Shown here in pieces: positions 2,251 to 39,981 of a stretch of DNA of 64,000 bases (its first letter is position 1; each line of letters begins with the position of its first letter). The notes beneath the pieces were generated by a model. That model ran no database searches. It was not told the DNA's origin and saw nothing but the letters and a program-made list of their open reading frames with translations. A program made the translations under genes and the position numbers. This DNA is from an uncultured Bacilli bacterium (lineage in GTDB: Bacteria; Bacillota_I; Bacilli_A; RFN20; CAG-826): positions 124,001 to 188,000 of the forward strand of contig CALVUI010000001.1 of NCBI GenBank assembly GCA_944363565.1, given 5' to 3'.

Positions 2251-3688
2251 GGAAGGCTACGCGGCGAAGGTCGAGGCTATGGCCCCGAATATCGAAGGCC
2301 TCGAACCGATCGAACCAAAAAAGAACCACCGCCCCTTGATCTACGGGGCCCTGGCCTTGGCCGGTGTCCTGGCCATCGCCCTAGGGCTGGGTCTCGGCCT
2401 TGGAGGCCCGGGGAAGTCGTCCTACGGCCGAATTTTGGCCAAGGCCAAGCAACCGGTCAATTCCATCGTCGTTTCCAAAAGAAGCGCGGAAATCTATAAG
2501 AATTTCGCCACCGTCTTTGCCCCCTTGCTCCTCGAGGAAGCCGAGGAATCGACCTCCCTATCCCTCGTCGACTTCTTCCTCAACCTCTCGACCCTGTCGT
2601 TCTTATCGGACGACGTCCTCCAATCGGAGGTCCTCGAACTCTACGGAGCCAATAGCCAAGAGGAAATCACCACCGCGGTCAAGGAAATCGGGGCGGCCCT
2701 TGCTAGCAACGTCACCGAAGGCGGGAAGGACTACGGGGCGCGTCTAGCCAATTCCCTCTGGGTCGATCCCGCGAAGACCTCCCTGAAGGAAGGCTTCGAA
2801 GATTACCGTCCTTCTTTGGAAGAGGATTACTATGCCTCCCTCATCAGTGGCGAAATCAACCCCGAGAAGGTCAACCAGTACCTGAAGGAGACCTTCGAGG
2901 GCTTTCCCTACCATCCCGAGCTTAAGGAAGGGGATCTTTCCGAAAACACCGCCATGGCCTGCGTCTCGGCCTATTACGTCTATGACTATTTCGACGATCT
3001 GACCCAGGAAAGGCTCAAGAAGCGAATCAGGACGGGCGAGGCCATCGACGATTACCAAGTCGACGGAGTCACCAAGGAAGTGCCCTATCTCGGCTTTGCC
3101 GGGGCCGGGGACCAGATTTATCGGAATGAGGGCCGCTTCGAAGGAGGGAGAATCGGCGAATTCCAAAGGCTTACGATGGACGTCTTCCTTCCGGAAGAAG
3201 GATTGGAGCCTAGTGAGATCATCGACGATCTTGTGAGGGAAAACTACGAGACGACCTTCGTCACGGGGATCGACGAGAAGGACGGGCTCGAGAAGATCCG
3301 TCCAGTCTCCCTCACCGTTCCCTGCTTCGACGTCGAAAGCCGGATCGACATCATGGATGCCCTCATGAAGGAGAATCTCCTCTCTTCCCTCTTTACCTCC
3401 GGCCACGTTATGGAGAAAGTCAGCCTCTACGACCTCTTCGTCAGTTCCTATCTCCAGACTTCCATCACCCGTTTCGACTACCACGGTCTCTACTCGGCCT
3501 CCGTTACCGTCAGCGGCATGGACGCCGAGTCCGACACCGCCGAGGTCGAGGCCTATGAAATCATCATGGACCGCCCCTTTGCCTACACCCTCAATAGCAG
3601 CCCCCTAAAGGACGAAACCGGGCATTACTTCACCCTCCCTCTTCTCTACGGCGTCATCTACGAACCCGGTTACGAGTTCGTGAATTAG
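2234..3688 (+). CDS. Membrane-anchored serpin-like protein, putative sigma-factor partner
   Basis: A 484-aa product, coupled to the sigma gene by a 17-nt overlap, with AAGGAG 10 nt before the ATG. Residues 1-34 are charged and probably cytoplasmic, 35-57 form one membrane helix, and the rest is extracytoplasmic. The ectodomain follows the serpin order: ARLANSLW, then a segment like the family's PE-x-IN-x-W-x-x-x-T (NPEKVNQYLKETFEG), VSAYYVYDYFDD where serpins have NAIYFKGxW, VSLTVPCFDVES where they have LPKFKIES, a hinge-like HGLYSASVTVSGMDAESD, and MDRPFAYTL then LLYGVIYEP at the end. The hinge only partly keeps the small residues of inhibitory serpins. The N-terminal tail could bind the sigma factor; that is inference. 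Confidence 0.7.
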   Translation: MKKKIREGYAAKVEAMAPNIEGLEPIEPKKNHRPLIYGALALAGVLAIALGLGLGLGGPGKSSYGRILAKAKQPVNSIVVSKRSAEIYKNFATVFAPLLLEEAEESTSLSLVDFFLNLSTLSFLSDDVLQSEVLELYGANSQEEITTAVKEIGAALASNVTEGGKDYGARLANSLWVDPAKTSLKEGFEDYRPSLEEDYYASLISGEINPEKVNQYLKETFEGFPYHPELKEGDLSENTAMACVSAYYVYDYFDDLTQERLKKRIRTGEAIDDYQVDGVTKEVPYLGFAGAGDQIYRNEGRFEGGRIGEFQRLTMDVFLPEEGLEPSEIIDDLVRENYETTFVTGIDEKDGLEKIRPVSLTVPCFDVESRIDIMDALMKENLLSSLFTSGHVMEKVSLYDLFVSSYLQTSITRFDYHGLYSASVTVSGMDAESDTAEVEAYEIIMDRPFAYTLNSSPLKDETGHYFTLPLLYGVIYEPGYEFVN

Positions 3689-3703
3689 ACATAGTCCCAA
3701 CAT

Positions 3704-3729
3704 AAAAAAAGAGCCCCATGGGGCTCTTT
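3704..3729 (-). terminator. Terminator between convergent serpin and lipoprotein units
   Basis: A perfect 16-bp palindrome at 3711-3726 (GAGCCCC/GGGGCTC) flanked by seven A on the left, so minus transcripts end in a seven-U tract right after the LRR lipoprotein stop. The plus side has only three T, so it works best on the minus strand but may stop both. Confidence 0.85.
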
Positions 3730-5456
3730 CAGATGTCGTAGTCGCCATCGATGCAAGTGACGACGTTTCCCTTTATTTGAGTATTTTCGTGGAAGCTTCC
3801 GTTTTCGCGGTGGAGGTCGACGGCTTCGAATTGTTCGATCGTCCCGGCGTAACGGAGGGTCAGGGATTTCGTGATCCCGCCCGGGAGGTCGGCATACATG
3901 TTGTAGAAGGCCCGGTCGATCGACTTAAGGCTGAGGGGCAAGGTCAGGTCTTCGATCTCCCGGTGGTAGGTGAAGGCCTCGGGATCGAGGTGAGTCACCC
4001 CTTCGGGAAGGACATAGGTCTCATCGACCTTCCCCATGGGGTAGGTGATGAGGTGCTTTTCGTTGTCCTTGAGGCCATAAAGGACCGAATCCTCGATGGT
4101 GAAGGCCTCGCAGCCCTCTTCGATCGTGAAGTTGTTTTCATACCCTAGGGACGTGATTCCGGAGAAGGGGTTTCTCCTGATTTCCATGAGGGTCGAGGGC
4201 AAATGGAGGCCCTGGATCGAATAGGAACGGCCGAAGGCCACGTCCCCGATACTTAGCAAGCCCTCGTTGAGTTTGACCGTGGTCAGACCTTGACAAAGCT
4301 CGAAGGCCGAATTCCCGATGCTCTCCAAGGTGCTGGGGGCTTCGAAGTCCCGGATCTTGGTGGAGATGAAGGCCTGGGAGCCGATGCTCTTCAGCCCTTC
4401 GTTCAAGGTGACGTCGGCAAGGTTGCGGCAGAAGTAGAAGGCCGAGTCCGGGAGGGCCGAGAGGCTCCCCGGGACGACCGCCTTTTCCAGACCCGAGCTG
4501 GCGAAGGCCGAGGCCCCGAGTTCGGTCAGTCCTTCCGGCAAGACGATTTGCTTCAAGGAGTTGGCGAACTGGAAGGCTCCCTGGCCGATGCTTTTGAGGG
4601 TCGAGGGGAAGGAGACGGTCTTGAGGTCCGAGTCGAACTGGAAGGCATTGACCCCGATGGTTTGTAAACCCTCGGGAAGGGTGACGGTTTCTAGGGAAGT
4701 GACGTTGCTGACCGCGTGATTGGCGATGTGGGTCGTACCCTCGGCGACGACGGCTTCCCGGCCATAGTCCAGGGGCACCCGGACCAAGGTCTTGCCTTGG
4801 TAGAGGATCCCGTCTTTGGCTTGATAAAGGCTATTGCCTTCCGCCACTTCGAAGCGCCTTAACTTCCTAGCCCCGTCGAAGGCCAAGGGATCGAGGGTCT
4901 TGATGTTGCTCCCGATCCTGATGGCGGTGATCTCGGTCCCGTCGAAGGCCCGTTCCGCTATTCCGGTCACCTTGTAGGTGGTGCCAAAGAGAGTCACTTC
5001 GCTCGGAATGAGGAGGGGAGAGGGAGCCTCGCCGGTCGGGAAGTAGCGGACGACGCTTACTTCGCCGTTATGGGGTTCGCTGAAGGAGAAGTCGCTGTCC
5101 TTGGTCGGAATCAACGCAAAAGTCCCTTCGATGAGGTTGTTTCCTTCATTGATGACGATGGTCCCGACGCCGTCACTTAGTTCCACTTCCTCACTGTTAT
5201 GGGTGAGGGAAGCGAGGCGGTAGCCTTCATTGGGTTCCGCCAAAATGGCCAGGGTATCGCCGATCGATAGGAGGGAGGCGGCGTTTTCGCCGCTCACCTC
5301 AACGCCGTCCTTGTAGGCCTTGAGGGTCCCGCCCTCGGAAGCCTCGAGATTCAAGGTGAAGAGGCTTTCCGAGGTGAGGGTGGAATCACTGGTTTGGGTG
5401 GGACCGCAGGCCGAAAGAAGGAGGGCGATCCCTAGCAAGGGGAGGGCCTTGTTCAT
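3729..5456 (-). CDS. Surface lipoprotein with InlB-type repeat and BspA-like leucine-rich repeats
   Basis: A 575-aa product. It has a lipoprotein signal peptide with lipobox LLSAC (Cys17) followed by GPT. Residues about 28-110 form a divergent InlB B-type repeat (GGTLKAYKDGVEVSG, then EPNEGYRLASLT). From about 115 to 550 run LRR_5/BspA-type repeats with recurrent units such as LPEGLQTIGVNAF, FPSTLKSIGQGAF and LNEGLKSIGSQAF. Such proteins are exported, lipid-anchored and often bind host or polymer ligands; the ligand here cannot be told. Its ATG overlaps the upstream stop as ATGA, so it is translationally coupled to the paralogous lipoprotein genes. Confidence 0.9.
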   Translation of the reverse strand: MNKALPLLGIALLLSACGPTQTSDSTLTSESLFTLNLEASEGGTLKAYKDGVEVSGENAASLLSIGDTLAILAEPNEGYRLASLTHNSEEVELSDGVGTIVINEGNNLIEGTFALIPTKDSDFSFSEPHNGEVSVVRYFPTGEAPSPLLIPSEVTLFGTTYKVTGIAERAFDGTEITAIRIGSNIKTLDPLAFDGARKLRRFEVAEGNSLYQAKDGILYQGKTLVRVPLDYGREAVVAEGTTHIANHAVSNVTSLETVTLPEGLQTIGVNAFQFDSDLKTVSFPSTLKSIGQGAFQFANSLKQIVLPEGLTELGASAFASSGLEKAVVPGSLSALPDSAFYFCRNLADVTLNEGLKSIGSQAFISTKIRDFEAPSTLESIGNSAFELCQGLTTVKLNEGLLSIGDVAFGRSYSIQGLHLPSTLMEIRRNPFSGITSLGYENNFTIEEGCEAFTIEDSVLYGLKDNEKHLITYPMGKVDETYVLPEGVTHLDPEAFTYHREIEDLTLPLSLKSIDRAFYNMYADLPGGITKSLTLRYAGTIEQFEAVDLHRENGSFHENTQIKGNVVTCIDGDYDI

Positions 5457-30752: not shown

Positions 30753-31703
30753 TTACAGAACCAGGGAGGCGATGAGGATCGTTATCCCGAACACCAAGGC
30801 GAGGTGGAGGGGATAATAGGCATAGCTTCCGTACTGGAACCATTTCGCATTGTACCCGCGTTTTCCGTTATAGCAAGCGATTGGCACTGCTGCCAAAACG
30901 CAATAGCTTTGGATTCCCATCGCGTAGACGTCATAGGGTCCCTGTTCGAAGAGGCCCTCGGCCCCTAGGGATAGTAGAGCCCAGAAGAGGACGGTCACGA
31001 GGACCAAAACCAAACAGGAATAAAGGTTCATTAGATAGCGATAGTCCGGCGTCTCCTTGAAGGCGTCGAAGGTTTCCCCTTTGGTGAAAGAGGAGGTCTT
31101 GAGGATCAGGAAGTCGAGGATCTTAGGCCCGTAGTAGAAGAGCAAGAAGATGGCAAAGCCGTAGATCGAATAACCACCGATGAAGAGTTGGTAGGGCTCG
31201 TAGGCCACGTCGATGATCCCCATATAACGGATGGCGTAGCTGACCCCGATATAGGCGAGGGGCAATAGGGAAAGGAACCTCAGGGGTTTCTTCTTGAGTT
31301 CGATCAGATAGATGAAGAGGGCATAGGCCAGGAGGTCGCTGAAGGCTTGGGAGATGACCCGGAACCCGAAGCCGAATTGGAGGATGATGGACATGACGAG
31401 GACGAAGGTCCAAGCCACCGCCAACCTCAATAGATAAACGGAACGGCTATGGGTGTGATGGAGGCCTTCGGCCAAAAGGAAGATGAAGATCGGGAAAGAA
31501 AGGCGTCCGATGATATGGAGGGCAAGGACGATGTTATAAAGGGCCCCGCCTTCGACGATCAAATAGCCATAGGTCGGGAGGACGCTTTCGATGGCCACCG
31601 CCACGTGGTCGAGGGTCATGGTCAAAAGGGCGATGATCTTCAAAACGAAGCCATCGAGCTTTTGGAAGCGACCGCGCCTTGAAATGGTTTGCGTTTCGTT
31701 CAT
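30753..31703 (-). CDS. TraX family membrane protein
   Basis: A 316-aa polytopic protein with about eight helices. The N-terminus KLDGFVLKIIALLTMTLDHVA and C-terminal GKRGYNAKWFQYGSYAYYPLHL are hallmarks of TraX (PF05857), named after the F-plasmid pilin N-acetyltransferase and related to membrane acyltransferases with the conserved H-x-L/H pattern. Chromosomal homologues in Firmicutes probably acylate surface molecules. No conjugation genes are nearby. It overlaps the CPBP protease stop as ATGA. Confidence 0.85.
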   Translation of the reverse strand: MNETQTISRRGRFQKLDGFVLKIIALLTMTLDHVAVAIESVLPTYGYLIVEGGALYNIVLALHIIGRLSFPIFIFLLAEGLHHTHSRSVYLLRLAVAWTFVLVMSIILQFGFGFRVISQAFSDLLAYALFIYLIELKKKPLRFLSLLPLAYIGVSYAIRYMGIIDVAYEPYQLFIGGYSIYGFAIFLLFYYGPKILDFLILKTSSFTKGETFDAFKETPDYRYLMNLYSCLVLVLVTVLFWALLSLGAEGLFEQGPYDVYAMGIQSYCVLAAVPIACYNGKRGYNAKWFQYGSYAYYPLHLALVFGITILIASLVL

Positions 31704-32548
31704 AGTTGACCTCCGGAAGTCATGGCGATGCTTAGGACCGAAACGAGGTTGTTGATGGCGTGGGTCGTATAGGAAGCCGCCAACCCGCCCTTATCGTAGA
31801 CGAAGGCCATGATGAGGCCGGGGACCAGGTAGAGGGGGACGTTGAGCCATTCGTTGAGGCTTCCGATGGCGGTGAAGTCGAAATGGATGAAGGCGAAGAC
31901 GACCGAGGCCACGACGTAGGCCACCCAGGTCGAGTAGCGTTTGAGGAAGCCGAAGAGCCCGACCCGGTAGCCGAGTTCCTCGCAGAGGGGTCCGACGAGG
32001 GCCAAAAATATGACGGCCAGGACAGGATTGTATTCCACGATTTCGACGATGAGGCTCTGGTTTTGGTTGTCGCCGGCCGCCGAACCGGCCTGGATGAGAA
32101 TGAGGTTATAGATGATGGAGAAGATGTAAATCGCGGCAAAACCGGCGAGGCCATAGAGGGGAGCTTTGAGCTTGATTCCCCGCAGAATCCCCTTCCATTT
32201 GTCGAAAACGGTAAGGCAGAGGGCGACCGCCAAGAGGCCGTAGGTCACATATTGGACGAGGGACAGGTTCTGGGGTCTTAGGAGCCACTCGCTAAGTTGC
32301 TCGGGGTTAAGGCCCTTTGGGGCGGTCATCAAAAGGATCAGTTGGACGATGGTCCCGAACAGCTGGAGGCCGACGAAGAGGATAAGGAAGAGGATCGGTT
32401 CCCTGAGGGGTTCGACCGGATAAAAGCCGGCGAAGGCGGCGAGGCGCTTGGGATCCCCGTTTTCCCTCCCGCAATACGGGCATTTGGTGAGAGCCCCGTC
32501 GATTTTATTTCCGCAGCCCTCGCACTTTTGGTAAGAGATGAAATTCAC
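31700..32548 (-). CDS. CPBP family intramembrane metalloprotease with N-terminal zinc ribbon
   Basis: A 282-aa product. I start it at GTG 32548 because TGTTAACAT, an extended -10, ends 7 nt upstream; an in-frame extension exists to 32584 but would lie before the promoter. Residues 8-28 are a zinc ribbon (CEGCG and CPYCG). Then about eight helices with the CPBP motifs CEELGYR (EExxxR), FAFIHFD and HAINN. CPBP proteins cleave within membranes and act in protein maturation or immunity. Heads the operon with TraX and thioredoxin. Confidence 0.85.
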   Translation of the reverse strand: MNFISYQKCEGCGNKIDGALTKCPYCGRENGDPKRLAAFAGFYPVEPLREPILFLILFVGLQLFGTIVQLILLMTAPKGLNPEQLSEWLLRPQNLSLVQYVTYGLLAVALCLTVFDKWKGILRGIKLKAPLYGLAGFAAIYIFSIIYNLILIQAGSAAGDNQNQSLIVEIVEYNPVLAVIFLALVGPLCEELGYRVGLFGFLKRYSTWVAYVVASVVFAFIHFDFTAIGSLNEWLNVPLYLVPGLIMAFVYDKGGLAASYTTHAINNLVSVLSIAMTSGGQL

Positions 32549-32606
32549 AGGGCAAATGTTAACATTTGGCTCACTCCCTTGCACTCTTTATGGCATAATT
32601 CCGGAC
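32549..32606. promoter_or_regulatory. Divergent leaderless promoters with a 14-bp palindrome
   Basis: Minus: TGTTAACAT (hexamer at plus 32556-32561), 7 nt before GTG 32548. Plus: TGGCATAAT (hexamer 32594-32599), 7 nt before ATG 32607. Both are extended -10 elements. AAATGTTAACATTT (32554-32567) is a perfect palindrome over the minus -10 and could be an operator. Confidence 0.6.
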
Positions 32607-35600
32607 ATGAGATATTTTCTTGCCATGCTTGATGAAGCAGTCGACGTGTCTTCGATCCTTTCGATCGTTAACCTGGTCCTCCAAATCGCCTTTTTCGCGA
32701 TCTTGGGGATCCTGGTCATTGCTTTCTTCTGCGGCCTCCTCAAGGGGTGGCGCTACGCCGTCTACCGCCTCATCATGGTTGCCATCTGGATCGCGGTTAT
32801 GCTCTTCACCCTCGATCCCCTCTGCAACTTCGTCGGCAATTTCGATCTCTCATCCTTCGGCATACCGGCCATCAACGTCGCCATCGGGGACATCACGGTC
32901 TCGGCCAACGTCACCACGCCCTATGCCACCATCGAGACCCTCCTGACCGACCTCTTCAAGGCCATGGGGACCTCCCTCGACCCGATTTCCCTAAGCAATT
33001 ACGTCGTCGCCCTGGCCAACAACACCGTCAAACTGGCCCTCATCCTGGTTTACGGGATTTTGCTTTTGACCCTCATCAACTTCCTCATTTGGTTCTCCTG
33101 GCACCTCATCTTCAAGTGGATCACCCCGCGGAAGATCCGCAAGGACAAGAAGAGGAAGAACAAGGGAAGGCTGGTCAACGCCTTCGCCAACGTCCTCGTG
33201 GTCTTCGTCTCCGGGGCCATGGTCCTTTTCCCCTTGACCTCCCTGGTCAATACCATCAACAAATCGGCCCTCCGTCCGGATGAGGAAACGATGGAGAAGA
33301 TCAGGGCCGACGGGGGAACCTACGCCACCGTCGTCGATGCCCTCGATGCCTATGACTCCTCGATCTTCGCCCAGGGCCTCTTCAATTGGACCTACAACGA
33401 AGAAACCGGCATGACCTTGGATGCCGCCCTCATCGACATGCTGATCTCGAGCGACTACAACGGCCTCTCCGTCTCCTTCATGAAGGAACTCGGGAGTTTG
33501 GCCTCCATCGCCTCGACCGCCCTTAGCACCGGCGTTGACCTCAATGGCAACCAAGGGGAGATGATCGCCACCCTCTTGACCGCCAAGCAAACCCCGGAAG
33601 TGCTGCGCCTCTTGACCCAAAACCAATTGATCAGCACCGCCCTTCCCTTTGCCTTCCAGGTCGCCATCCACATGGACCAGATCGCCGACTTCCTCCTCAC
33701 CGATGAGGGGATCGACGCCACCGGCGAGGACTTCAGCCATACCTTCGATAGCCTGGCCGACCTCTACGACGGAGTCTTGGCCTCGGGTGTTCTCGAAGGC
33801 CTTTCGGTCGATGAGCAAGGGCAGTTGGCCTTTGATTTCGACTACGTCACCAAGATCCTCGGGGAAGAAGGGAAGACTACCTTCGATGCCTTCTTTACCA
33901 AACTCGACAACGGGGAATTGGCCCTTCTGGAAAATATCCTCGATTCCTTTGCCTTCATGCAGGCCGTCAACGCCCTGACCGACGAAGGGGAAGAGGGCGA
34001 AGAAACCACGAGCGACCAGCTTCTCATCTCCGACTTCCTCCCGAAGGCCAGCTTCGTCGACGAAAACGGCGACGGCCGGCCCGACGCCGTCAGCCAGGAA
34101 TTCAAGGACATCAAGTGGGGCCAGGAGATCTCCTACCTCTTTGACTTCGTCTACAACGCCAACGCCATCGACCCGACCTTCGCCCCCAACCTCATCGCTT
34201 CCATGACCTCCACCGAGGAAGGGGAAGTCGACCTCGGCCCGGTCATCGACTTCGCCGTCGACAACATTGAAGCCATCGGGGACCTCTTTGTCGGGGACCT
34301 CAGCACCATCGACCAGAACACCGGCCATGACGTCGATCCCGAGAAGTCCTGCCTCCTTGATTCCTCCTTGGTCCAAAACGCCATGCCGAAGCTCTTAACG
34401 GTCCTTCAGGGGACCCTCGAAAGTTCGCTTCAGGGGACCCTCGAGCCCGGGACCATCGACCTCGTCGGGGTCGCCGATCAGCTCGCTAATGAGAATCCGG
34501 CCACCCAGATGGTCAACTACAAGCGCGAATTCTCGGCCCTCTTCTCGGTCCTCGAGGCCATGGTCGTCGACCATCCGAAGGTCCAGGAATTGCTCAAGGA
34601 CTTCGACAAGCACCCCGGCATCTACATCGCCCCCGACAATAGCTTCAAGGGGATGGATGACGACATCTACGCCGGCCTCATCGACGCCCTCCCGCGCCTC
34701 GACTCGTCTTTGATCGCCTCCAATACTCTCCCGGCCGTCTTTGCCTCCTTCCTCGAAGGCGAAAACAACCCGATCGGGAGTTTGCTTGGGGAAGAAGCCG
34801 TCCCCTTTGACTTCGACGTCCCGTCCCTTGGGACCGAACTTTCGAAGTTGGTCCAAGCCATCAGGGAACTCGATCCCTATCTTTCGGAACTGATGGCCCT
34901 AGGTAGCGGCGGCATCAACACCTCGACCATCCAAAACGTCCTTTCGATCCAAATCGGGCCCGATGAGACTCCGGTCATCACCTATTTGCTTAATCTTTTC
35001 GCCACCAGCGCCATCCTCAATCCGGCCGTAACCACCGAAGACGGCACCACCGTCATCAATACCAACTACTATCTCCTTATGAAGACGGTGGCCGAAACGG
35101 CCTTTGGCCCCGGAACCTTGACCTTGACCGTCATGGACTTCCAGGATGCCTCTAGGGCCGAAGCCGAAAGCGAAGCCATCGGCCGGGTCCTCGAAAGCAT
35201 CATCGATACCGATCTTCTGAGTCAGCTTGGCGATACTGCCAGCGTCGAAATCTCGAAGATGCTTCGTACCCTCGACGCCATCCCCGAGGAAACCTTCATC
35301 GAGCTCTTCGATGCCCTCGGCTCCTCCCTCATCATGAGCGATTGCCTCGGGACCTATTTCGATCAAACCTTGGTCAGTGGCTTCTTCGGTGAGGGGAGCG
35401 GCATCTCCTTCCACAATGTCACCGATTGGGCGGCCGAAGGAAAGGGCCTTAAGAGCCTCATTTCCTACGCCTCGGAGATCGGCGACCTTGCCAACCTCGA
35501 CATCTTCGGAAGCGATCCCTACGCCATCGAGGGGATCCTCAAGGCCTGCGCCAATAGCCAGCTCTTCGTTTCCAAGGAAGACGGAAGCTTCCTCTTCCCC

Positions 35601-38600
35601 TCCTTCCTTTCGGGTCTCCTCGACGACAATCTTTCCAATTCCCCGATCGAGTACCTCCAGGGGACCAGTTTCGATAAGACGGCCCAAGACTTCGTCGTCG
35701 ATCCCGAAAACCCCTATGGGATCTTGAAGGACAACATCATGGCCCTCGATACCCCGGAGCTCTGGGAAGACGAGATCTCGGTCTGGGGCGATCTCTTCAC
35801 CATCCACCAGCAGATGGATCTGACCACCGGCATCGACATCGCCTCCCTCGAGGTCGAAACCTTCAGGAGCCTTGGTCTGACGGCCGCGGCCTCGAAGGCC
35901 TTTGGCAATCTCATCATGCCCCACGTCTTCATCATCGTGAAAGACACGGTCCGGTCTTCTTTGCCGACCGGTTCGGAAGAGGACGCCCTCGACAATGCCG
36001 ACATCTCTTATGTTTATTATGGGACCTATGAGCAGGTAGCCGCCGAGGTCGAGACCCTGGTCGACGTCACGGAAGCCATCCTCGACCCGACCTACGGCCT
36101 CATCGACGAAAGCGGGAACATCGGGGCCATCGAACCCGGTTCCATCTCCGGCAAGAGGACCCTCGAGCCGATTCTCAACGGCCTTTCCAAGAGCCAGGTC
36201 TTTAACGGCCAGGCCGAAGGGGCCACGGCCTACGAGTCCTTCCTGATCGACTTCCTCTTCGCCAGCGGCTTCTATCCCAGCGACTTCGATAAGAGCGAAG
36301 TCCTAGAGATGGTCCCAAACGTCGAATCCTGGGAGGCCGAAAACGCCCTCATCTGCCAAGCCTTCGACAATCTGACCCCCGTGGTCGGGACCGGTTCTTT
36401 GGCCGACTTCGACCCCACTTCCTTCTTCCAGGGGAGTGCCGCTGAGATGAACGAGAAGAAGCAACTCCTCTCCGACCTCCTCATCAGCATCGATAATTCG
36501 ACCCTCCTTTCCCCGGCCCTCAGGGCCCAGGTCAGCTCCTTCAGTAGCGGCATCCAAATCGACTTCGTCCCGGGTGGTCTCAGTACCGTTAACTTCGACT
36601 ACCAGAATGCCGAAGGCCATTACGGGGAAGAGGAAATCGAACGCCTGGTCGAGCTTTTGGCCCTCCTTCCGAACCTTGGCTCCGACATCTTCGGGAACGC
36701 CGAGATCCTGGCCGAGGCCCTCGGCGGCCTCCTCGAGAGCCGGGTCTTCAATACCGTCAAGGCCGGCGAGGAAACGACCTTCTTCCAAAACCTCATCTAC
36801 GCCGTCCTCGGCGACGAGACCATTTCTTCCTATCTATATAGCGCCGACAACCCGAAGATGGCGGGTTACGACCAAAAGTCCTACGTCGAGCACCTGGTCT
36901 ACGAGGTCTATTTCCCGGCCATGGTCGACGGGACCGACGTCCACGACGTCCCGGCCGAAATGGCACGCCAGAAGGACCTCATTTTGAGCCTCAACGAGGT
37001 CTTCCCGGTCCTCAGCGACTTCATGGGCTCTGGCAGCTTCGATGTCGGGAGCCTCAATTCCGAGGACCTTTACCAGATCCTCCATGCCGTCAACAACTGC
37101 GACCTCCTCTTCGACATGGTCCCCAATCTCTTGAACGGGTTCCTGAGTAGCAGCAGCGCGATTGCCATCAACGGGGTCGACCTCTCCTTGGCCTATCCTT
37201 TCTTCAACTATTACTATGACGAGGACACGGATTCCATGACCAGCGAAGCCGACTTCTCGCGCCGCTATCCGGAAGCCGAACTCCAGCTCATCGCCGACCT
37301 CGTCGGTGGTCTGACCGAGTACGCTTCCTTCTTCAACAACCTCAACCTCAGCACCATCTCGCCTTTGGCCGTGAACGAGATCTTAGCCGCGGCTGCCGAT
37401 AGCTATCTCTTCAACCGGGCCGGGCCCAATCCCCAAACCCTCGACCATACGAGGAGTTCGATCGACGTCTTGCCCAACGACCTCACGGTAGCCGAGCAGA
37501 TCCTTCAGATGTTCTACCAGACGGCTGGCATCCACCGCTTCTCCTTCGAGGTCCATGAAGACGCCATTTGGCTCCTTTCCCTTACCTCGAGCACCGGGAT
37601 CCCGCTCATCAGCGACCTCGCTACCTTCGTCGCCCGCGACGATGCGGTCGAAGTCGGGGCCAACAACAAGCTCTACGATGCCATCATCGCCTCCAGGGGC
37701 ACCGATAGCCTCTGGCAGGAAGTGGCGATCCTCACCACCGGGACCGCCGATACCCAGGGCTTCATCGAAATCATCCAAAACACCAACCTCCTCGGTGCTT
37801 CGAGCGACATGGGCGATCTCAGCACCTCCTTCATGAGCCTCCCGCCGGAGACCCTTTCGACCTTGCTAAGGGCCCTTTCCTCCCTGAGCCTCATCGACGT
37901 CCCGGTCGGCTACCTGGCCGATCAGGTCTTCAACGGGGAGACGGTCAACCTCCAGCCCTTCTCGATGACGACCTTGACCCTCAAGACCGACCAAAACGGG
38001 GAACTCCTGATCCCGGCCGCTTCTTCCTATGGCCGGATCCACTCCCTAAACGTCGCCCTCGGGGTCGACCAAGCCGCCACCTATTCCTTGGATCTCTACG
38101 CCAAGGCCCGGACCAACGACTCCTACCAGTATGCGAGCGGAAAAGCCGTGACCGGAGCCTTTGAACTCCTTGACCTCGACGATTACCGTCCCTACGGCTT
38201 CGACTTGACCCTCCTCGATGGCAGCAACCAGCCTCTAGCGGACATTGATGTCACCCTGAGCGTCGATACCTCGGACTACTTCTACCGCGAAGCCACCACC
38301 TTTGCCGATGCCAGGGCCCGTTACACCTCGGGCGGCCTCGAGGTCCTCAATGACTTCCTCGGCATCCTTTACGATGTCGGTTCCGGCAGTGGCGAAGGCG
38401 GTTACTTCTCCTTCGACTCCAATAGCAGCGACGGCATCATGCAGGCCCTCGACATCGGGATCGCCCGCTTCCTTGCCTTCCTTGGCAATGACGGTGGCTT
38501 CTACGCCGCCGGCGACAAGGAAAGCGGTCTGACCGGCCGGGCCGTCCTCACCAATAGCCTCCTCGAGGTCGGTTCGACCGTCGACCTCGGCTCGGTGGCC

Positions 38601-39404
38601 GCGGGCCAAAACATCGAGCTTTCCCTAAGCGACTACGCCACCTATATCCCCGATCAGGGGAGGAAGGCGCCGCTCGCCGCCATCGAAAGCATTTATGAGC
38701 TCCTCGAAAGCGGGACTTCGAGCTATGAGCTAGAGGGGGCTTGGTTCGATAATCGGATTGCCAGTGCCACCGCCATCAGCGCCTTCATGAAGGCCCTTTC
38801 CCTCATGGACAATGGCTCTATTCCCAATCCGGCCGCCATCCAAAGCAACCTCTTCCTAACGACCCTCCGCGACGGTGGCAACGATTACCGTAACCTCTAC
38901 GAGACCCTCTTCGATATTGAGGATGCCACGAGTCTCTTCGGTTACAACATCACCATCGGGATCGCCCGGGAAATCCTCGACCTCAGCGTTGCTTACGGAG
39001 ATGAGGCCGGCACCCTCCCCGATCGTATCTATCTCCTTTCCAAGTCGATGATTCCGACGCACGGCAACACTACAATCGTGCCGCAGTTCGTGTCTGGTCC
39101 TTATGATTTGTCTTCGGAGTACGTCGATCCGCTGATGTATCAGGACTACGAGAGGATAAAACGCGTCTTCAAAAACCTCCTCGAAGGCCGATCATTCTTG
39201 TCGATCGCCGCCGCTTTGGATCCCGTTGCCGATACCGCCTACCGGGCGGCCGTCAATCTCTTCTATGGTCTGGGCTATGACGTCGTCTGGTCCGATGACT
39301 TCCTCAAAGCCACCAACGACCAGAGTTGGACCGACCTCTTCAAACTCCAAAATTATCCCTCGGAGACGAATATCTTCAGGACCATCCTAGACCTCAATGC
39401 TTAG
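32607..39404 (+). CDS. Giant membrane-anchored extracellular protein (2265 aa), CvpA-like N-terminus
   Basis: The 6.8-kb frame has normal codon use throughout. Four membrane helices lie in the first 215 residues (about 19-41, 48-70, 130-155 and 190-215), with a very basic loop KWITPRKIRKDKKRKNKGR before the fourth; the layout resembles CvpA-type proteins. By the positive-inside rule the remaining ~2050 residues are outside the cell. They consist mostly of leucine-rich helical segments with recurring short elements such as ACANSQLF, AVNNCDLLF and AAADSYLF, and a Thr/Asp-rich beta domain near residues 1790-1910. There is no sortase motif, catalytic site or known adhesin domain. It starts at an extended -10 without leader and overlaps the next gene by 8 nt. 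Confidence 0.8.
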   Translation: MRYFLAMLDEAVDVSSILSIVNLVLQIAFFAILGILVIAFFCGLLKGWRYAVYRLIMVAIWIAVMLFTLDPLCNFVGNFDLSSFGIPAINVAIGDITVSANVTTPYATIETLLTDLFKAMGTSLDPISLSNYVVALANNTVKLALILVYGILLLTLINFLIWFSWHLIFKWITPRKIRKDKKRKNKGRLVNAFANVLVVFVSGAMVLFPLTSLVNTINKSALRPDEETMEKIRADGGTYATVVDALDAYDSSIFAQGLFNWTYNEETGMTLDAALIDMLISSDYNGLSVSFMKELGSLASIASTALSTGVDLNGNQGEMIATLLTAKQTPEVLRLLTQNQLISTALPFAFQVAIHMDQIADFLLTDEGIDATGEDFSHTFDSLADLYDGVLASGVLEGLSVDEQGQLAFDFDYVTKILGEEGKTTFDAFFTKLDNGELALLENILDSFAFMQAVNALTDEGEEGEETTSDQLLISDFLPKASFVDENGDGRPDAVSQEFKDIKWGQEISYLFDFVYNANAIDPTFAPNLIASMTSTEEGEVDLGPVIDFAVDNIEAIGDLFVGDLSTIDQNTGHDVDPEKSCLLDSSLVQNAMPKLLTVLQGTLESSLQGTLEPGTIDLVGVADQLANENPATQMVNYKREFSALFSVLEAMVVDHPKVQELLKDFDKHPGIYIAPDNSFKGMDDDIYAGLIDALPRLDSSLIASNTLPAVFASFLEGENNPIGSLLGEEAVPFDFDVPSLGTELSKLVQAIRELDPYLSELMALGSGGINTSTIQNVLSIQIGPDETPVITYLLNLFATSAILNPAVTTEDGTTVINTNYYLLMKTVAETAFGPGTLTLTVMDFQDASRAEAESEAIGRVLESIIDTDLLSQLGDTASVEISKMLRTLDAIPEETFIELFDALGSSLIMSDCLGTYFDQTLVSGFFGEGSGISFHNVTDWAAEGKGLKSLISYASEIGDLANLDIFGSDPYAIEGILKACANSQLFVSKEDGSFLFPSFLSGLLDDNLSNSPIEYLQGTSFDKTAQDFVVDPENPYGILKDNIMALDTPELWEDEISVWGDLFTIHQQMDLTTGIDIASLEVETFRSLGLTAAASKAFGNLIMPHVFIIVKDTVRSSLPTGSEEDALDNADISYVYYGTYEQVAAEVETLVDVTEAILDPTYGLIDESGNIGAIEPGSISGKRTLEPILNGLSKSQVFNGQAEGATAYESFLIDFLFASGFYPSDFDKSEVLEMVPNVESWEAENALICQAFDNLTPVVGTGSLADFDPTSFFQGSAAEMNEKKQLLSDLLISIDNSTLLSPALRAQVSSFSSGIQIDFVPGGLSTVNFDYQNAEGHYGEEEIERLVELLALLPNLGSDIFGNAEILAEALGGLLESRVFNTVKAGEETTFFQNLIYAVLGDETISSYLYSADNPKMAGYDQKSYVEHLVYEVYFPAMVDGTDVHDVPAEMARQKDLILSLNEVFPVLSDFMGSGSFDVGSLNSEDLYQILHAVNNCDLLFDMVPNLLNGFLSSSSAIAINGVDLSLAYPFFNYYYDEDTDSMTSEADFSRRYPEAELQLIADLVGGLTEYASFFNNLNLSTISPLAVNEILAAAADSYLFNRAGPNPQTLDHTRSSIDVLPNDLTVAEQILQMFYQTAGIHRFSFEVHEDAIWLLSLTSSTGIPLISDLATFVARDDAVEVGANNKLYDAIIASRGTDSLWQEVAILTTGTADTQGFIEIIQNTNLLGASSDMGDLSTSFMSLPPETLSTLLRALSSLSLIDVPVGYLADQVFNGETVNLQPFSMTTLTLKTDQNGELLIPAASSYGRIHSLNVALGVDQAATYSLDLYAKARTNDSYQYASGKAVTGAFELLDLDDYRPYGFDLTLLDGSNQPLADIDVTLSVDTSDYFYREATTFADARARYTSGGLEVLNDFLGILYDVGSGSGEGGYFSFDSNSSDGIMQALDIGIARFLAFLGNDGGFYAAGDKESGLTGRAVLTNSLLEVGSTVDLGSVAAGQNIELSLSDYATYIPDQGRKAPLAAIESIYELLESGTSSYELEGAWFDNRIASATAISAFMKALSLMDNGSIPNPAAIQSNLFLTTLRDGGNDYRNLYETLFDIEDATSLFGYNITIGIAREILDLSVAYGDEAGTLPDRIYLLSKSMIPTHGNTTIVPQFVSGPYDLSSEYVDPLMYQDYERIKRVFKNLLEGRSFLSIAAALDPVADTAYRAAVNLFYGLGYDVVWSDDFLKATNDQSWTDLFKLQNYPSETNIFRTILDLNA

Positions 39405-39981
39405 TCCATCCGGCCAAGTCGAAGGCGAAATCCGGATCCTGGCCTCGATCTTTCACTTCGCCCTTTGGCCCATCAGGGGTGAGGATCCCGAGAAACTTCT
39501 CGAAGTCTTCAAGGCCAAGTATCCCGGGGCCGACCACTATCCCTATGCCTATATCAATAAGGGGAGTGAACGCTGCAGCGACGATGGGGAACCCCATCTT
39601 TCCGCCGGCCTTCCTTTCCTTGAACTATTGAGGGCCAGGGAATTCGACGACGTCCTTTTGGTGGCCGCCCGTTACTTCGGGGGAACAAAGCTCGGCTTAG
39701 GACGCCTCAAGAAGGTCTTCCGGGACGGGGCCAAGGAAGTGATCGCCAAAGCCTCCTACTTAACGATTGCCGAAAGGCCCTTTGTCCAGGTTGAGGTGCC
39801 CTTCGAAAAGGCCATGTCCTTCGAAGGGTATCTCCGAAAGTCCGGGATCGAGTTCGAAAAGGACGCCAGGGAAGAGAGATATTCCTTCCTTTTTCCCTTA
39901 GCGGACACTGGAATTTTGGCTTATTTGGAGGAAAATAGGCTCGCTTACGAGAAGCTGGAGCCAAGGAGGACCTACCTATGA
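39397..39981 (+). CDS. YigZ/IMPACT family protein
   Basis: A 194-aa product with the UPF0029 core: FHFALWPIRGEDPEKLLEVF, HYPYAYINKGSERCSDDGEP, and LLVAARYFGGTKLGLGRLKKVF, typical of bacterial YigZ proteins related to eukaryotic IMPACT. Cytoplasmic; a link to translation or proline peptide handling has been suggested for the family. It sits immediately before an aminopeptidase P gene, overlapping it as ATGA. Confidence 0.9.
   Translation: MLSPSGQVEGEIRILASIFHFALWPIRGEDPEKLLEVFKAKYPGADHYPYAYINKGSERCSDDGEPHLSAGLPFLELLRAREFDDVLLVAARYFGGTKLGLGRLKKVFRDGAKEVIAKASYLTIAERPFVQVEVPFEKAMSFEGYLRKSGIEFEKDAREERYSFLFPLADTGILAYLEENRLAYEKLEPRRTYL

Follow-up and report, generated by a model that had tools for sequence, protein, structure and literature searches.

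The giant gene and its membrane base

The window analysed here is a stretch of 64,000 nucleotides from an uncultured Bacilli bacterium (contig CALVUI010000001.1), and its most conspicuous feature is a gene on the forward strand (32607..39404) predicted to encode a giant protein of 2265 amino acids (aa). The ATG start of this coding sequence lines up with those of its homologues; an alternative in-frame ATG at position 32538 would give a product of 2288 aa. The open reading frame has no internal stop and is the largest of the 64-kb window, the runner-up encoding 1029 aa. Among 14 local genes scored for codon use it ranks first (0.351, against 0.145-0.314 for the others), and such host-typical usage argues for a native gene. 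An earlier note on this DNA had described the gene as the largest of the window, with normal codon use and its own promoter. The first two statements hold, but the promoter is not borne out: a consensus promoter scan upstream of the gene found none, and only a -10-like CATAAT (32594..32599, forward strand), 7 nt 5' of the ATG and without a recognisable -35, is present. If used as a -10 element, it would leave the gene without a leader. A GATAAT or CATAAT is similarly placed upstream of two homologues (L031 and L034). In three others (L036, L047 and L049) an inverted repeat, TTATCCTGCTAGGATAAG, is found within about 10 nt of the gene start and could be a regulator site.

Hydropathy analysis of the protein identified exactly four membrane segments, all inside residues 11-217. 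Together with the structure model, hidden Markov models (HMMs) and HHalign, it defines a CvpA-related membrane base of four transmembrane helices (residues 1-217; 32607..33257, forward strand). No Pfam family matches the window protein at E<1, and a scan of its own genome likewise gave no CvpA (PF02674) match at the locus. An HMM of the first 250 residues of the family to which the protein belongs (see below) matches the CvpA protein L137 (247 aa; Pfam CvpA 54.2 bits) with a domain E of 1.1e-9 and a full E of 2.4e-10, as well as the CvpA proteins L096 (full E 5e-8) and L089 (full E 5e-6). HHalign comparison of the base with an alignment of eleven CvpA proteins, from which L137 was left out, gave a probability of 98% (E 2.1e-13) over 181 columns that include all four helices, whereas control comparisons of the base with the CPBP and TraX membrane families stayed below 1%. 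Among distant members of the family, L175 passes the Pfam CvpA cut-off (31.4 vs 29.3 bits, E 2e-7), and L183, L055 and L098 match this model with E values of 5e-6, 3e-5 and 2e-4, respectively. The HMM matches, the HHalign result and the distant members that reach Pfam therefore identify the base, at the level of sequence profiles, as a diverged CvpA domain. A group of CvpA-like proteins of about 280-300 aa (L138-L143; for example L140, 697-1602) is also matched by the base profile, with E values down to 4e-15. In those tested, the giant-family base profile scores above Pfam CvpA, and these proteins are perhaps short paralogues of the base.

The distribution of charge indicates how the protein is oriented. 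The loop between helices 1 and 2 (residues 43-55) has three K+R and no D+E, and that between helices 3 and 4 (residues 168-192) has eleven K+R against one D+E; residues 214-2265 contain 93 K+R and 312 D+E. As the two positively charged loops should be cytoplasmic, the C-terminus and an ectodomain of about 2050 residues are predicted to lie outside the cell. Both the CvpA-like four-helix base and the external position of the remaining residues had been proposed in the earlier note, and these comparisons uphold them.

A repetitive, mainly helical ectodomain

The ectodomain is acidic, cysteine-poor and mainly helical, and its composition is typical of the family (D+E 12-20%, K+R 4-10%, Leu 9-16% and Cys 0-1% in the ectodomains of 61 members). 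A motif scan of the window protein found no LPXTG, NPQTN, YSIRK, lipobox, SLH, RGD or HEXXH, and sequence searches of Pfam, NCBIfam and PDB with this protein gave no match. Weak Pfam matches in members of the family (EI24, VTT_dom, TgpA_N, EF-hand, ATG5_HBR and others) were rejected as chance matches of membrane or low-complexity sequence, or as isolated fragments.

Self-comparison of the genus profile by HHalign revealed internal repetition over residues ~640-1784 (34524..37958, forward strand), with off-diagonal matches at shifts of about 100 and about 200 aa and probabilities of up to 97.6%; residues 1840-2265 gave no internal matches. The underlying unit is a repeat of about 85 aa with the consensus LLDIDLLDLTSEEIESLLDALDDSKLLSSLLPNALDKALNNSDELKDYGIDFSNITDWGEELANLLDIVKSLQDLGILSNIDEDV, for which an HMM was seeded from the membrane-proximal part of the protein and iterated three times to convergence. 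Across 61 proteins this HMM detects 374 copies, whereas shuffled ectodomains give none. In a sample of the phylum it detects the repeat in 63 of 392 genomes, all of them of this class; most matches lie in proteins of the family, and most in frames of 1000-4600 aa. Since family sequences went into training the HMM, it is the shuffled sequences and the phylum sample that count as controls. The unit has no match in Pfam, and its PDB profile matches to spike HR2 and designed helical bundles (best E 7e-4) were dismissed as compositional helix matches.

In the window protein the base is followed by a membrane-proximal 'neck' (residues 225-420; 33279..33866), which a neck HMM shows to be conserved across the order and in several members of the class. 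At least five clear repeat copies were identified, all on the forward strand like the other features of the gene: residues 323-400 within the neck (33573..33806, domain E 4e-11), 680-755 (34644..34871, 5e-6), 892-965 (35280..35501, 2e-14), 1282-1358 (36450..36680, 2.7e-5) and 1478-1573 (37038..37325, 3.1e-8). Two weaker copies (domain E 1e-4 to 0.01), the ends of which are approximate, start at residues ~433 (33903..34136) and ~584 (34356..34586). The cleanest example of the repeat is found in L152 (G041:C68, 2-7987), from a genome of the order. Its frame spans at least 2662 aa and contains 25 consecutive, near-regular copies at a period of ~85 aa; the same genome carries a second family protein of 1019 aa (L055, G041:C140). 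The distant members L174, L176, L177 and L182 possess only two to three copies each, which reflects either divergence or other ectodomain content. A motif scan also located DENGDGRPD at residues 485-493 (34059..34085). Motifs of this type (DxNGDGxPD), the sequence of which resembles a calcium-binding loop, occur in 16 of the 61 members, against 0.35 expected in total from shuffling.

The protein was modelled in two overlapping segments using AlphaFold2 with alignments, and helices dominate both models. Model 1 (residues 1-1190) has a predicted local distance difference test (pLDDT) score of 75.3 and a predicted template modelling (pTM) score of 0.52; for model 2 (residues 1118-2265) these are 69.5 and 0.55, with blocks between about residues 1200 and 1600 mostly at pLDDT 80-93. 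From the secondary structure of model 2, residues 1787-1887 (37965..38267) are predicted to form a jelly-roll beta-sandwich of eight strands. Its nearest match by VIA-align is a fucosidase beta domain (Z 7.6). The carbohydrate-binding module CpGH89 CBM32-6 follows at Z 7.2 (root mean square deviation 3.0 over 94 residues), and nucleoplasmin-type folds reach Z 6.8; sugar binding by this domain is possible. The C-terminal tail (residues 2068-2265; 38808..39401) is mostly of low model confidence and is the least conserved part of the alignment. Against solved folds, the best Foldseek matches of model 1 have an E of 0.1 (Gea2 and transportin 3), VIA Z is below 5 for its helical parts, and model 2 matches BIRC6 with an E of 1e-4 but a template modelling (TM) score of only 0.13. 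These HEAT-like, BIRC6 and importin matches have low TM or Z values and reflect common arrangements; they show neither membership of a known fold nor a new one.

The picture drawn earlier, of leucine-rich helical segments with recurring short elements, a single beta domain and no known adhesin, enzyme or anchor motif, agrees with these results. Charge distribution, repeat profiles and models together support an external, leucine-rich and mostly helical region with repeats and a single beta domain, predicted as a sandwich in model 2; the self-matches and repeat counts bear out the recurring elements, and the motif and database searches the lack of known motifs. The segment-wise structure prediction suggested in the earlier note yielded helical models and one beta-sandwich. 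No characterised surface enzyme or transporter turned up as a homologue in the searches, the finding that the note had named as contrary evidence.

Family, locus and host

By tblastn, a homologue was identified in 31 of the 37 genus genomes and in 5 of 24 further ones from the order. The genus comprises uncultured gut and rumen Bacilli, Candidatus Alloenteromonas included, and is likely placed in the order RFN20. Using a profile of the first ~620 residues, matches were obtained in 118 of 196 genomes and 34 of 52 genera of the order (about a dozen of the 118 being plain CvpA proteins of ~250-300 aa) and in 117 of 395 genomes of the class. Complete members measure 619-4165 aa, and a further frame, of at least 6049 aa, runs to the end of its contig. 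At 14 loci from other orders, four helices open each giant frame, and most of these frames have no other strong membrane segment. The search for orthologues and size variation thus disclosed a large, class-wide family, and CvpA-anchored giant repeat proteins, consisting of four N-terminal helices, a neck and ~85-aa repeats, are proposed here as such; the window protein fits all three elements. No description of them was found in the literature searched, which did not cover subscription papers and preprints. The family is widespread in gut and related bacteria, many of them without a cell wall, and is apparently undescribed. Giant surface proteins and CvpA domains are known in themselves; the joining of a CvpA-type base to ~85-aa repeats, and its spread across the class, did not turn up in the papers searched.

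Within the genus, the shortest members (1262-1323 aa) end near residue ~1210, the end of the core common to all genus members compared, and the longest reaches 2809 aa. Mean identity in the genus alignment falls from 29-39% in residues 1-400 to 5-14% in residues 1651-2265. The homologues of G015 and G025 (L048 and L046) are closely similar and of 1628 aa each; a search match showed an internal TAA in them, and the frame read from the DNA is open over all 1628 aa. Tandem paralogues occur at L176 and L183. At L176 a trypsin-like protease gene (3668-4522, reverse strand) is divergent to the tandem pair (2941 and 955 aa), and at L181 a gene for a BspA-type leucine-rich repeat protein (2948-4168, reverse strand) is found near a family member of 2855 aa.

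Upstream of the giant gene in the window, and divergent to it, are the genes of a CPBP (Rce1-like) intramembrane protease (31700..32584, reverse strand; Pfam PF02517, E 7e-17) and a TraX-family protein (30753..31703, reverse strand; Pfam PF05857), both conserved neighbours. The CPBP protein has a zinc-ribbon-like N-terminal CxxC...CxxC segment. Downstream, the start of a YigZ/IMPACT gene (39397..39981, forward strand; Pfam PF01205, TIGR00257) overlaps the stop of the giant gene by 8 nt, and the giant gene therefore probably heads a yigZ-pepP-glpK transcription unit. The order Trx-TraX-CPBP and, divergently, giant gene-YigZ-PepP-GlpK-AddB-AddA is retained across much of the order, even where identity falls to ~20%. 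Loci with no detected giant gene occur in the same genus (G014, G017, G028, G029 and G016) and elsewhere in the family (G062-G065, G070, G078, G099 and G102). At these the CPBP gene adjoins that of YigZ or PepP, and with such intact loci the lack of the giant gene is genuine and not a gap in the assembly. A functional tie to CPBP and TraX was considered and rejected, since both persist where the giant gene is lacking and synteny alone does not make a partnership.

The tree of the giant gene follows that of PepP (Mantel r 0.83; permuted maximum 0.32), and together with the clean absences this points to vertical descent and to loss on several occasions. The statement in the earlier note that the gene is clearly maintained thus stands as regards inheritance across the order, and has to be qualified for several close relatives, same-genus ones included, from which it is cleanly absent. 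These absences would also suit a lineage-specific relic or hitchhiking gene of no important function, the least probable of the explanations considered here, given that most relatives keep intact reading frames, that the core is strongly conserved, that codon use scores highest locally and that the gene tree tracks PepP.

The host itself is predicted to be wall-less. The transpeptidase domain PF00905 was absent from the genome of the window and from 14 other genus genomes tested, and was detected in 10 of 14 control genomes; none of the nine genus genomes tested for PF01098 (FtsW/RodA) had it. From these absences of a penicillin-binding transpeptidase and of FtsW/RodA the host is expected to have no peptidoglycan. 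This is in line with published predictions of wall-lessness for families of the order RFN20, which are also reported to be missing sortases, and for which fewer surface proteins were inferred (PMC10868615). The lack of wall genes, along with the frequency of very large surface proteins in the class, could suggest that the giant protein forms a coat or exoskeleton that mechanically replaces peptidoglycan. This is improbable, as several wall-less relatives have no such gene (G014, G017, G028, G029 and several genera of the family) and walled relatives that have it exist. Genomes that encode penicillin-binding proteins and carry a family member are G119, G045, G055, G041, G249, G258, G266, G319 and G414. 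A strict link between the gene and wall loss, examined with PF00905 in 55 genomes, was accordingly discarded, wall-less genomes without the gene and walled genomes with it both occurring.

Proposed function and comparison with known systems

The reading favoured here, with a probability of about 0.55, is that the protein is a membrane-anchored giant surface rod working as a scaffold or adhesin. Its architecture is well supported; its function, and with it the elongated shape, calcium binding and contact role, is what we infer. The base would be inserted by the Sec/YidC route and would serve as a membrane anchor that needs neither sortase nor wall. Stacking of the repeats may produce a long superhelix, to the stability of which calcium might contribute. 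The resulting rod would act at the cell surface as a scaffold or adhesin, the variable distal part, beta-sandwich included, contacting glycans, particles or, within the gut, adjacent cells. Contact of the outer part with changing surroundings would account for the low conservation of the distal residues.

Several points weigh against this reading. The pTM values of 0.52 and 0.55 are of middling confidence, so the rod shape is not settled by the models, and nucleoplasmin folds match the beta-sandwich at nearly the same Z as carbohydrate-binding modules, so that this match is not diagnostic. Clean absence from several relatives, some of the same genus, shows the gene to be dispensable, and its presence in genomes with penicillin-binding proteins uncouples the protein from wall loss. 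At the loci in other orders, its neighbours are unrelated housekeeping or assorted genes, with no partner family travelling along. No functional homologue of the giant protein was found.

Alternatively, the CvpA base could be the working part, with a role in transport, export or envelope stress, and the ectodomain a capture or gating scaffold for a substance that crosses the membrane. The base is indeed among the better conserved parts of the protein, but its conservation is not above that of the neck and core out to residue ~1000. Furthermore, the mechanism of CvpA itself is unknown, G029 of the same genus has a plain CvpA protein of 247 aa and no giant protein, and no transporter or ATPase partner accompanies the giant gene. 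This explanation is considered unlikely, though it comes next after the scaffold or adhesin reading.

Animal guts commonly harbour uncultured mycoplasma-related Bacilli, many of them predicted to have no peptidoglycan. The missing sortases have led the literature to infer fewer surface proteins (PMC10868615), and the family suggests a different picture, in which a wall-independent, CvpA-related anchor carries ectodomains of ~400 to several thousand residues. Tentatively, and with somewhat less than an even chance of being right, the class-wide, CvpA-anchored ~85-residue-repeat family may be a main way in which sortase-less, wall-deficient Bacilli display large external proteins. Through it, questions of attachment, aggregation and membrane protection in gut bacteria without a wall can be put to a concrete protein. 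For the study of CvpA, itself poorly understood, it supplies naturally occurring fusions, and for structural work a Pfam-unmatched repeat, while conserved loci with and without the giant gene form natural pairs for comparison.

As a whole, the giant protein fits no known family, although parts of it resemble known systems. With CvpA, the colicin V production protein (PF02674), it shares a homologous four-helix base; the plain CvpA proteins found here are of ~190-300 aa without an ectodomain, whereas the window protein adds about 2050 residues with no Pfam match. LPXTG/sortase-anchored giant adhesins are likewise giant repeat surface proteins with a role in attachment. The window protein differs in having no LPXTG or YSIRK and in being anchored by N-terminal helices, and sortases are reported missing in RFN20 (PMC10868615). 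Nor does it resemble a bacterial lipoprotein, as no N-terminal lipobox was found in it. BspA-type surface proteins of the same class also have leucine-rich repeats, but of ~23 aa; those of the window protein are of ~85 aa, helical and without a match to the leucine-rich repeat models of Pfam.

The mycobacterial acid-resistance protease MarP (Rv3671c) has a base of the CvpA type. It combines four N-terminal helices with a large extracytoplasmic C-terminal domain (PMC4992679), and this likeness raises the question of whether the giant protein, too, holds an enzymatic or stress-sensing ectodomain by its base. MarP is of ~397 aa with a trypsin-like protease domain, while the repeat ectodomain is several times larger, gives no match to the Trypsin and Trypsin_2 Pfam models or to any other protease or enzyme family in Pfam and NCBIfam, consists largely of repeats and varies widely in size between relatives. 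An enzymatic or sensory role is thus very improbable, slightly more so than a coat. The very large extracellular proteins Giant1-5 of Apilactobacillus kunkeei, one of the Bacilli with small genomes, form long alpha-helical repeat rods that have been called new (PMC12863079). Compared by description, these have an N-terminal beta-solenoid and C-terminal DUF5776/SH3b-like domains, whereas the window protein opens with membrane helices; they are also encoded by clustered genes in walled bacteria and are apparently loosely attached (PMC12863079). Giant helical rods have a precedent in Giant1-3 of A. kunkeei (PMC12863079), as does the tethering of an extracytoplasmic domain by four N-terminal helices in MarP (PMC4992679).

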